A DNA stretch of 22,282 nt, taken from positions 1 to 22,282 of IMG/VR virus record IMGVR_UViG_3300042332_000949. One strand, 5' to 3'. Made by a program: the position numbers and the translations under genes. This document shows positions 8,155 to 10,975 of the stretch, piece by piece; position 1 is the stretch's first letter, and each line of letters begins with the position of its first letter. A model generated the notes under the pieces. The model saw only the letters and a program-made list of their open reading frames with translations, searched no databases and was not told where the DNA came from. This DNA is from a virus.

Positions 8155-8370
8155 ATGACAAACTCCGAAAAACTGGAGGCTCGTCGTATCGCTGACGAAC
8201 TCCACAAGGCACACTGCGCCTTTATTCGGGCAGATCTTCCCGGTCTACACCCAGACAGCATGATGGCAGTTAAACTTGCTCATATGATTCGCATGTTTGA
8301 TGCGACTCTTGAACCTACGCCTCTTTCAAAAGCGGCCAGAATGCAACGCGATCACGAGGCGACTCTGTAA
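8155..8370 (+). CDS. Hypothetical protein, 71 aa
   Basis: It starts 43 bases after the SSB-like gene and overlaps the helicase start as TAATG. The protein is helical and slightly acidic-basic mixed (MTNSEKLEARRIADELHKAH, later MMAVKLAHMIRMFDATLE, then KAARMQRDHEATL). No motif was recognised. Its place just before the helicase suggests a replication accessory, without proof. Confidence 0.5.
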   Translation: MTNSEKLEARRIADELHKAHCAFIRADLPGLHPDSMMAVKLAHMIRMFDATLEPTPLSKAARMQRDHEATL

Positions 8371-9701
8371 TGACTACACTCAATGTCCCGCAGGCTACAG
8401 ATGCCGAGCGGGCGGTGCTGGGGTGTCTACTGTTTTCCCCAGTAACTGCACATCCTGCGGTTGTCGCCTCTGGGCTGACTGCGCAGGATTTTTTTAACCC
8501 CACATTCCAGACCATCTTTGCCGGCATCCAGTCTTCCATTGACGCTGGCGAGAGTCTCGACCCAATCGGGCTTGCAAGTAGACTCGCGCAAAAAGGAATC
8601 GCTTTTTCCCTTTTGGCAGATCTCTCAACCGGGATGCCAAGTCTGGAGCCGCTCCCGAGCTGGTGCGCCTTAGTCCAGGATGCCTCAAGACGTAGAGGAC
8701 TGCTTAATGAGCTTCTGAGTGCCACTAAAGCACTCTCGGAAGGTAACCCTACAAGCACGATTGTCGCTGACCTGACTCGGGCTACTCTGACAGCAGGAGA
8801 GTCTCAGGGACTGGGCGCTATAGTACAGACCACGTTCAATGACCTGCTCACCTATGATACAGAGCACGATAGCAATACGCTCATTGGTAACAGATGGCTC
8901 TGCAAAGGTGGAAGTGTGCTCATAAATGCTCAAAGTGGCATAGGAAAGAGCAGTCTGACGATGCAGTTGGCAATCGGCTGGGCGCTCCACGGGCAAGGCT
9001 CATTCTCAGAGGTGCTGACATTCGGCATCGTCCCGGTGAGGCCACTGAAGAGCTTGCTCTTGCAGGCAGAGAACGACATAGGTGACCAAGCAGAAATCTT
9101 GCAATCGGTGATTTGCAAGTATGGGCGTACTCAGTGTGGAGAAGCTGAACTGGCAGTCCTTAACGAACGACTCGTGTTTTACCGCGATAATGTGCACTCA
9201 GGTGCAGAGTTCTTAAGAGTGTTGGAGGCGCTCATCATCAGGCATCAGCCAGACATAGCATGGATTGACCCTTTGATGTGCTACCTCGGGGATGACATCA
9301 GTGACCAAAAGGTAGTCACAGAGTTCTGCAATGGGCTCAACAGGATATCTTCCAAGACCGGGGTGCTCTTTGCGATCATCCATCATCTTCCTAAGCCTCG
9401 GGAGGGAACAGCACGCACTGACTCAGACTTGGCCTATGCAGGATTTGGCTCTTCAGCACTCACAAACTGGGCGAGAGAGGTAGTGACATTACAGAGGCTT
9501 GAGACTGCCCCCGGCCAGCCTCCAACGTGCTCTTTTACTTGTACGAAGAGAAGACTGCGGTCAGGAATGCGCAGTTGGGAGAACCAGCCTACAGCAAAGA
9601 TCTACATCAGACATAGCCCTGAGCCAGAGAGACACGGCATGATTTGGCAACAGTGCCAGCAGCCAGAACCACCAGAAGAACAGCCAAAGAAGAGAAAGTA
9701 A
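8370..9701 (+). CDS. Replicative helicase: DnaB-N domain plus RepA/RecA-like ATPase
   Basis: A 443-residue protein in two parts. Residues ~6-75 resemble the DnaB N-terminal domain (DAERAVLGCLLFSP, then FFNPTFQTIF, LDPIGLASRL). From ~165 comes a RecA-fold ATPase of the RepA/AAA_25 type: Walker A AQSGIGKSS (187-195, Lys193), a Walker B strand DIAWIDPL (295-302, Asp300), and LFAIIHHLPKP (333-343), the usual histidine-bearing sensor stretch. Such proteins form hexameric 5'-3' helicases at the fork. The C-terminal tail is Pro/Glu/Lys-rich. The gene overlaps its upstream neighbour as TAATG and its stop TAA overlaps ATG 9701, with GTG 9703 just after it. It likely acts with the initiator encoded at 10972. 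Confidence 0.8.
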   Translation: MTTLNVPQATDAERAVLGCLLFSPVTAHPAVVASGLTAQDFFNPTFQTIFAGIQSSIDAGESLDPIGLASRLAQKGIAFSLLADLSTGMPSLEPLPSWCALVQDASRRRGLLNELLSATKALSEGNPTSTIVADLTRATLTAGESQGLGAIVQTTFNDLLTYDTEHDSNTLIGNRWLCKGGSVLINAQSGIGKSSLTMQLAIGWALHGQGSFSEVLTFGIVPVRPLKSLLLQAENDIGDQAEILQSVICKYGRTQCGEAELAVLNERLVFYRDNVHSGAEFLRVLEALIIRHQPDIAWIDPLMCYLGDDISDQKVVTEFCNGLNRISSKTGVLFAIIHHLPKPREGTARTDSDLAYAGFGSSALTNWAREVVTLQRLETAPGQPPTCSFTCTKRRLRSGMRSWENQPTAKIYIRHSPEPERHGMIWQQCQQPEPPEEQPKKRK

Positions 9702-10390
9702 TGTGGATACTACCCAAATCAATCATATCAGCTTATGTGCCGGGTACGGTGGCATTGACTTGGGCCTCCGGCGAGTGCTCCCAAGCCTGCGCACAATCGC
9801 TTACAGTGAGATCGAAGTCTTCGCAGTGGAAAACCTACTTGCGCGAATGGCAGCGGGGCAACTGGAAGCGGCTCCGATCTGGAGCGATCTCAAGTCATTC
9901 CCTTGGGAGAGCTTTCGAGGTTTGGTGGACATCCTTTCTGGCGGCTACCCGTGTCAACCATTCAGCGCAGCAGGACTCAGGAAGGGAACAGACGACCCAA
10001 GACACCTCTGGCCTTTTATTGCAAATGGAATTGCTGCCATGCGACCAAAACTATGTTTCTTTGAAAACGTCGAAGGACATATCTCGTTGGGACTGCCCGA
10101 CGTTATCGAAGACTTGGCAGGACTGGGTTACAGAACAACGTGGGGAATATTCTCAGCGGCTGAAGTTGGCGCACCTCACCAGCGGAGACGAGTCTTCATA
10201 CTTGCCAACTCCCTGCGCGAACGAGGACAGCTTCCGATTGAACGGGAACAGTCAGCAGAGCAAATGTCTGGAGGCGAAAGCGAGGCGTGGAGAGCTTGGA
10301 GAACCTGGCCCGTTAAACCCGGAGTTTGTCGAAGTAATGATGGGGCTTCCAATAGGGTGGACAGATTGCGCCTCCTTGGGAACGGAGTAG
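9701..10390 (+). CDS. Overprinted frame: methyltransferase-associated protein, 229 aa
   Basis: In the -2/+1 frame relative to the methyltransferase, ATG 9701 overlaps the helicase stop as TAATG and opens 229 codons without a stop. The first half looks like a shadow of methyltransferase motif I. The second half does not: it contains TWQDWVTEQRGEYSQRLKLA, SSYLPTPCANEDSFRLNGN, CLEAKARRGELGEPGPL and NPEFVEVMMGLPIGWTDC. PTPxANE and LNPxFVExxMGxPxGWT are established segments of cytosine methyltransferase target regions and of separate phage proteins related to them. The last 40 bases encode GWTDCASLGTE here and VDRLRLLGNG (motif X) in the other frame, so both meanings use the same DNA. It may be a translated partner protein or an untranslated relic. 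Confidence 0.5.
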   Translation: MWILPKSIISAYVPGTVALTWASGECSQACAQSLTVRSKSSQWKTYLREWQRGNWKRLRSGAISSHSLGRAFEVWWTSFLAATRVNHSAQQDSGREQTTQDTSGLLLQMELLPCDQNYVSLKTSKDISRWDCPTLSKTWQDWVTEQRGEYSQRLKLAHLTSGDESSYLPTPCANEDSFRLNGNSQQSKCLEAKARRGELGEPGPLNPEFVEVMMGLPIGWTDCASLGTE

Positions 10391-10443
10391 TTCCGGCTAC
10401 GGCGGAATTAGCATTTAGAACACTATTCAATGAACTACACTAA
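9703..10443 (+). CDS. Cytosine-5 DNA methyltransferase (Dcm family)
   Basis: A 246-residue enzyme that would transfer a methyl group from S-adenosylmethionine to cytosine C5. Motifs in order: I, SLCAGYGGIDLGL (10-22, cofactor loop); IV, SGGYPCQPFS (79-88, catalytic Cys84); VI, FFENVEGH (119-126, Glu121); VIII, APHQRRRVFILA (157-168); X, RLRLLGNGVVPATA (221-234). The region between VIII and X, where the target-recognition domain lies, is only ~50-55 residues, so the enzyme is short. The start must be GTG 9703, two bases past the helicase stop; the only nearby ATG (9701) is in another frame. Typical phage role: protecting DNA from host restriction. Its whole length is overlapped by another long open frame with methyltransferase-like sequence. 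Confidence 0.9.
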   Translation: MDTTQINHISLCAGYGGIDLGLRRVLPSLRTIAYSEIEVFAVENLLARMAAGQLEAAPIWSDLKSFPWESFRGLVDILSGGYPCQPFSAAGLRKGTDDPRHLWPFIANGIAAMRPKLCFFENVEGHISLGLPDVIEDLAGLGYRTTWGIFSAAEVGAPHQRRRVFILANSLRERGQLPIEREQSAEQMSGGESEAWRAWRTWPVKPGVCRSNDGASNRVDRLRLLGNGVVPATAELAFRTLFNELH

Positions 10444-10975
10444 AATCGGAGCGTTACCAACACACAGGTACATCTGGGTGGACAGTGAATACACTCATGC
10501 AGAGCCATGTGGCCTCGTAGAAGCCATGTGGGTGGGCCTGACATCTATCCCTGGGCGAGCTTGGGGCATCAACGTCATCCTGCGAGACGGAGGCGCTCTG
10601 TATCGCAACATCCCTCCTAACGCTGTAGCGTTTAGCAAGGATGCTGCACCTTGGCATATTCAAGCTGCACAGATGTGGGACTGTTACAGCTACAACTTCT
10701 CAGTGCTCCAGAATCCGATTATGCGCGGGATGGAAGTCATTGTAGTCTGGAAAGACAATGTGTTGTACGGAGAGTACCTTTTCTCTGTAACACACCTCCA
10801 CGACGGCTGGTCTGACTCCCCGGATCAAGACAAGGAGTTCATCTTCGTCAAACTCAATAACGGAAGACTGACAATCCAGCCCACCAACAGAGTGCGCTTC
10901 ATCGACCACAGTTTTACGACAAACGAACTACCAAAGTTGAAACTGCAAGAAACGGTGTACAGTTGCGAGAAATGA
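10430..10975 (+). CDS. Conserved phage protein of unknown function, 181 aa
   Basis: It overlaps the methyltransferase end by 14 bases. The protein is rich in Trp and aromatic residues: HRYIWVDSEYTHAEPCGLVE, AMWVGLTSIPGRAWG, WHIQAAQMWDCYSYNF, and RLTIQPTNRVRFIDHSF near the end. This set (WVDSEYT..EPCGL.., SxPGRAWG, NGRLTIQPTNRV) recurs in uncharacterised proteins of podovirus replication regions, so it is a real and conserved gene. No catalytic motif or membrane span was seen. It ends as ATGA with the initiator gene. Confidence 0.6.
   Translation: MNYTKIGALPTHRYIWVDSEYTHAEPCGLVEAMWVGLTSIPGRAWGINVILRDGGALYRNIPPNAVAFSKDAAPWHIQAAQMWDCYSYNFSVLQNPIMRGMEVIVVWKDNVLYGEYLFSVTHLHDGWSDSPDQDKEFIFVKLNNGRLTIQPTNRVRFIDHSFTTNELPKLKLQETVYSCEK

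Follow-up and report, generated by a model that had tools for sequence, protein, structure and literature searches.

The stretch of DNA that we analysed, 22,282 nucleotides in length (hereafter the window), contains a C5-cytosine methyltransferase gene in which two overlapping frames are both open and both under selection. We consider it very probable that this locus encodes a split, two-subunit C5 methyltransferase, in which alpha (frame f0) would be the catalytic subunit while beta (frame X, +1 relative to f0), whose translation, binding to alpha and role in setting specificity we infer, would direct the enzyme to its target. The two frames have complementary motifs and closely spaced starts, and they are obligately paired in the loci examined.

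The beta ATG lies 2 nt before the alpha GTG, and X overlaps nearly all of f0 (Table 1). The DNA encoding motif X of alpha starts where the motif-IX-like element of beta stops. An earlier note on this DNA had reported an open frame of 229 codons at 9701 and had quoted peptides from it; the frame runs as described, and the peptides are present in the sequence. The gene downstream (10430–10975) begins 14 nt inside the end of the methyltransferase and matches phrog_3704 (‘ferredoxin’) with an E value of 8.6e-31.

Table 1. Features of the methyltransferase locus, in window coordinates.
Feature	Position	Strand	Details and support
Upstream DnaB-like helicase gene	8370–9701	+	Stop overlaps the beta ATG; AAA_25, E = 1.3e-17; DnaB N-terminal domain, E = 1.2e-12
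TAATGTG overlap	9699–9705	+	Helicase stop TAA 9699–9701, beta ATG 9701–9703, alpha GTG 9703–9705; sequence, starts of 80 relatives, 34 representatives
Alpha (f0), C5-cytosine methyltransferase large domain	9703–10443	+	246 aa; GTG start; stop 10441–10443
Beta (X), +1 frame relative to f0	9701–10390	+	229 aa; ATG start; TAG 10388–10390
Beta N-terminal part, overprinted on alpha motifs I–VIII	9701–10195	+	0 stops in 80 relatives
Motif IV of f0, GGYPCQPFS	9940–9966	+	Catalytic Cys 9952–9954; invariant in alignment A2
Putative target-recognition module LPTPCANEDSFRLNGNSQQSKCLEAKARRGELGEPGP, X frame	10202–10312	+	Identity and substitution pattern favour X
Motif-IX-like beta end LNPEFVEVMMGLPIGWTD, X frame	10313–10366	+	Identity; hhalign placement on canonical motif IX
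Motif X of alpha, RLRLLGNGVVP, f0	10363–10395	+	Invariant columns of alignment A2; f0 periodicity back at 10391–10440

Frame f0 matches phrog_363 (E = 8.4e-58) and PF00145 (E = 4.1e-31), the latter match being confined to residues 7–172. It contains motifs I–VIII, including the PCQ and ENV catalytic residues, together with motif X (PCQPFS, ENVEGH and LLGNGVVP are invariant in alignment A2), which is the content of a two-chain C5-cytosine methyltransferase (PF00145). Frame f0 has neither motif IX nor a small domain to accompany the catalytic motifs on one chain, and in this respect it does not correspond to a single-chain C5 methyltransferase. The earlier note had credited this frame with all key motifs; that description holds for motifs I–VIII and X, while motif IX is missing from f0 and a sequence resembling it is found in X. 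The AF2 model of f0 (mean pLDDT 75.9) has a confident large domain with an M.HhaI-like fold (Foldseek E about 1e-12 against M.HhaI and M.HaeIII), and residues 174–225 are modelled as a disordered gap that sits at the place expected for the small domain.

Frame X is open well beyond chance. We collected 80 homologues from IMG/VR by f0 alone, so that X had no part in the choice, and found no stop over the first 172 codons of X, the part overlapping the catalytic domain, in any of the 80, compared with a mean of 6.45 in the +2 (third) frame; the check proposed in the earlier note, that the second frame should stay open in homologues, thus came out in its favour. For 34 representatives (<90% identical), synonymous shuffles led to an expectation of 96 stops in the +1 frame, where 0 were observed, and the +2 frame contained 217. 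When f0 of the window was shuffled synonymously, with the protein fixed and codon use preserved, the +1 frame acquired a mean of 8.0 stops and its longest open run averaged 70 codons; none of 500 such shuffles attained the 228-codon run of the real sequence. As a control, 141 neighbouring ORFs with 200 codons or more were examined: none was fully open in +1, and one had an open run of 200 codons or more.

The position of the putative beta start is likewise conserved. An X-frame ATG occurs within 14 nt of the methyltransferase start at all 80 f0-fetched loci, ranging from 14 nt before to 4 nt after the alignment-estimated start and preceding it in 79 of the 80; at the single remaining locus, L071, the estimated methyltransferase start is itself off. 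Scanning for Shine-Dalgarno motifs of at least 4 bases at a spacing of 5–20 nt identified one upstream of the X ATG in 15 of the 34 representatives, a count that does not tell the two starts apart.

Over the part that overlaps the catalytic domain, X matches phrog_1008 (E = 1.7e-18). Pfam returned no DNA_methylase match on X, and comparison with solved structures (PDB) gave no significant match, only weak ones to F-box proteins (E = 0.066 and 0.099). The N-terminal 165 residues of X resemble nothing known, and the AF2 model of X is poor (pLDDT 53) and lends no support to a predicted small-domain fold for beta. A plasmid search with an X relative as query returned three weak records only. We also considered the score of an X-profile HMM relative to synonymous shuffles (z about 9) as proof of the frame and dropped it: z was 6.9–9.7 in the +1 frame but 5.4–7.3 in the +2 frame, and because the latter is nearly as large, shared descent explains most of the X-profile signal.

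The periodicity of substitutions shows that selection acts in f0 over motifs I–VIII, in X over 10196–10375, and in f0 again over motif X. Between the window and L004, changes at f0 codon positions 1, 2 and 3 number 22, 15 and 35 over 9851–10195, 15, 5 and 2 over 10196–10375, and 2, 0 and 8 over 10391–10440, with a two-sided binomial probability of about 0.002 for the 15 versus 2 imbalance in the middle segment. Since f0 codon position 1 is X codon position 3, the silent positions over 10196–10375 belong to X. Across all pairs of aligned genes, the corresponding rates are 0.402, 0.142 and 0.124 over 10196–10375 and 0.265, 0.202 and 0.468 in the catalytic segment. Identity among relatives (11–103 sequences per segment) is higher in X than in f0 for the motif-IX segment (0.83 versus 0.43; 103 sequences), for module B (0.98 versus 0.53) and for module A (0.75 versus 0.40; shared module class, 13 sequences), and is reversed for the motif IV segment (0.47 versus 0.76); these segments were located with X patterns and are biased toward X, a bias of which the window–L004 periodicity is free.

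Third positions of f0 are also better conserved than those of control genes at equal protein identity, with values at 4-fold sites of 0.72 versus 0.60 in the 80–90% range and 0.87 versus 0.69 at 90% and above. Across relatives, variability at f0 positions 1 and 3 is nearly equal near the start (0.238 versus 0.243) and over motifs VI–VIII (0.190 versus 0.221), a feature that is absent over motif IV. This near-equality suggests that parts of the N-terminal region of beta may matter too.

The motif content of the two frames is complementary, since X ends in the motif-IX-like LNPEFVEVMMGLPIGW and f0 has no motif IX. When hhalign was used to align the X end with the canonical set, it fell on their motif IX (RrLTvrE-ARLQgFPD versus gkLNPrWVEtLMGLPVGW) with an E value of 0.044 and a probability of 1.2, statistics as weak as an alignment of 24 columns would lead one to expect. 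The EcoHK31I-type motif split, with I–VIII and X in alpha and IX in the other frame, is seen here with its motif IX resting on this placement. Because the X end aligns with a motif that belongs to the main frame in canonical enzymes, the suggestion of the earlier note that a once in-frame target domain has been kept out of frame probably describes the origin of beta, modest as the alignment statistics are.

For a comparison with canonical enzymes, PF00145 was searched against 14 bacterial genomes from the X-fetched set, yielding 28 scorable loci, among them some duplicates and some of the X-fetched genes themselves. Where a single PF00145 match spans the whole enzyme (L189–L194, L203–L205 and L207), the +1 frame has 10–29 stops and there is no X; adding the two enzymes matched in two pieces of one frame (L206 and L214) widens the range to 7–29, and none of these enzymes has motif IX in the +1 frame. 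In 13 domain-truncated enzymes (L195, L197–L201, L208, L209, L213, L215–L218), the +1 frame has an open run of 213–487 codons, not significant by shuffling in every case (notably L201), and in all 13 this frame also encodes LNPxWVExLMGLP or a closely similar sequence. Three truncated enzymes are exceptions: L196 is without a long X, and L202 and L212 are open but without the motif-IX pattern.

Searching with X only retrieved 15 bacterial and 80 viral loci, and f0 overlaps X in the same relative frame at all 95; since several of these viral contigs had already come up in the f0 search, the two sets are partly dependent on each other. No stand-alone X gene was found among the 95 (+ strand frames read in the matched orientation). 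Ten further phage records, with 31–57% f0 identity, contain the same X second frame, and the two-frame arrangement is found in phages and in several bacterial phyla. Three of the ten have an annotated +1 CDS, namely fTaEco03 (TE3_033, ‘Mte8-like’), Lily (‘g62 internal gene’) and Leyra (a second methyltransferase CDS), indicating that annotators had spotted single cases. Each of these CDSs lies within a C5 methyltransferase gene and is shifted by +1 relative to it, as X is here, but their annotated starts lie 88–184 nt downstream, and no function for the pair is stated in any of the three records.

Eight relatives (L045, L050, L056, L057, L058, L067, L070 and L075) and L027 show that the two-frame arrangement is not perfectly stable. 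In the eight, the third frame holds the motif-IX-like element; their methyltransferase frame ends early and motif X is found in the X frame, with L056 having motif X in the third frame as well. Indels, gene degeneration or sequencing errors may account for them. L027 (2999–3742) has an X frame with an HNH-like segment at the expected place of motif IX, resembling the out-of-frame HNH of ShiLan; the HNH profiles of Pfam (E = 3.5e-4) and PHROG (phrog_1271, E = 6.7e-10) match one member of alignment A1, which we identified by its sequence as L027. The X of L041 (2999–4648) comprises 550 aa and contains several modules of the WPTPxAxD type, which may represent several target-recognition units, and the presence of such modules in the X of longer relatives suggests that recognition modules may be exchangeable. 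In L005 (3001–3912), the f0 spacer that precedes motif X contains a cysteine-rich insert resembling a zinc ribbon, and L107, a Pseudodesulfovibrio MAG contig, carries two overlapping f0/X pairs in tandem.

Natural alpha/beta C5 methyltransferases have precedent in M.EaeI and in M.EcoHK31I, whose beta subunit is read from an alternative frame within the gene for alpha. A beta frame so placed is what this locus and its relatives display. M.EcoHK31I consists of two polypeptides, a large subunit with motifs I–VIII and X, in which its TRD is also predicted to lie, and a small subunit with only motif IX (PMC3404938). The present locus resembles it in separating motif IX from a large chain with I–VIII and X, but differs in that beta holds the constrained module preceding motif IX, begins ahead of alpha and spans almost the whole gene. 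Likened to M.EcoHK31I by motif layout rather than by sequence comparison, the locus appears to work in the same way and hence to be no new kind of enzyme. M.AquI, in which the catalytic large subunit is joined by a small subunit with motifs IX and X and the variable region is divided (PMC3404938), likewise has motif IX apart from the catalytic chain; it differs in the placement of motif X, as only L048, L049 and L068 put both IX and X in the X frame and so resemble the M.AquI division.

Hidden frames in phage methylase genes include the out-of-frame HNH described for ShiLan (PMC11855218). There, the frame is a homing-endonuclease insertion, whereas here it resembles the enzyme's own missing part, and no HNH domain was found in X of the window. 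The family phrog_1008 (‘DNA methyltransferase’) matches X and 33 of 34 X relatives as well as motif X of f0, and its label gives no hint that it picks up the second frame of methyltransferase genes. In the literature searched, which left most subscription journals uncovered, we found no description of this overlap in phages, of its wide distribution or of selection that switches frame. Precedent exists for the kind; what is new here is the scale, the overlap of the two starts as ATGTG, and a selected frame that changes along the gene.

We propose that both frames would be translated separately from closely spaced starts on one mRNA, with alpha providing cofactor binding and catalysis (motifs I–VIII and X) and beta providing target recognition and the motif-IX-like element. 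The two would assemble into an active enzyme that most likely marks phage DNA against host restriction, and each frame stays open through the working part of the other. The earlier note had raised the possibility of a partner protein helping target choice, and this is the best reading of a presumably translated X that is open with a nearby ATG in 80 of 80 homologues, has X periodicity over 10196–10375 and carries what f0 misses.

We regard it as unlikely that X is instead a translated overlapping protein with another job, such as a regulator, inhibitor or anti-restriction factor, rather than an enzyme subunit. Such a role would suit a protein without a significant PDB match or a confident fold, whose first 165 residues look like nothing known, yet the motif-IX-like element missing from f0 is present in X, in motif order, X never occurs without the methyltransferase in 95 loci, and single-frame canonical enzymes are without X. 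Marginally less probable again is programmed frameshifting, by which one chain would take motifs I–VIII from f0, shift +1 into X for the TRD and motif IX, and return to f0 for motif X. This mechanism needs neither an open X over motifs I–VIII nor an X start, yet zero stops and a nearby ATG are found in 80 of 80; moreover, the usual layout demands two opposite shifts, and f0 is without a stop through the TRD segments examined. Its appeal lies in the strongest-selected frame going from f0 to X and back to f0 in motif order, and in the three relatives with both IX and X in the X frame, where a single shift would be enough. That X is not a real protein, and owes its openness and resemblance to codon bias and methyltransferase conservation, is highly improbable: inherited DNA similarity does account for part of the X-profile similarity, as seen in the +2 control, but openness of this kind is not recovered in synonymous shuffles that keep codon use, stops abound in the third frame, and the X-frame period-3 substitutions over 10196–10375 cannot arise from selection on f0 or from a pure wrong-frame artefact, which the earlier note had named as one possible refutation.

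The split two-subunit enzyme may also be one case of something wider. According to this broader proposal, to which we give a little less than an even chance, full-length two-frame C5 methyltransferase genes would form an old, large class in phages and bacteria, in which beta combines a displaced target domain, its C-terminal part, with a new protein of 165 N-terminal residues created over the catalytic domain. A single exchange of DNA would replace the target module in the two frames together and thereby alter the specificity of the enzyme.

For long same-strand overlapping genes, proof that selection acts on both frames is usually difficult to obtain; in this case, what speaks for the second frame is its openness, its start codons, the obligate pairing, and a period-3 signal of selection that can be seen directly to switch frame. 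If the split enzyme is confirmed, many phage ‘DNA methyltransferase’ annotations would represent half an enzyme, a PHROG family label would omit the second-frame nature of what it matches, and an alpha gene that is codon-optimised and expressed by itself would lose its partner and might appear inactive. The locus offers a natural system for asking how one DNA sequence keeps two functional proteins.
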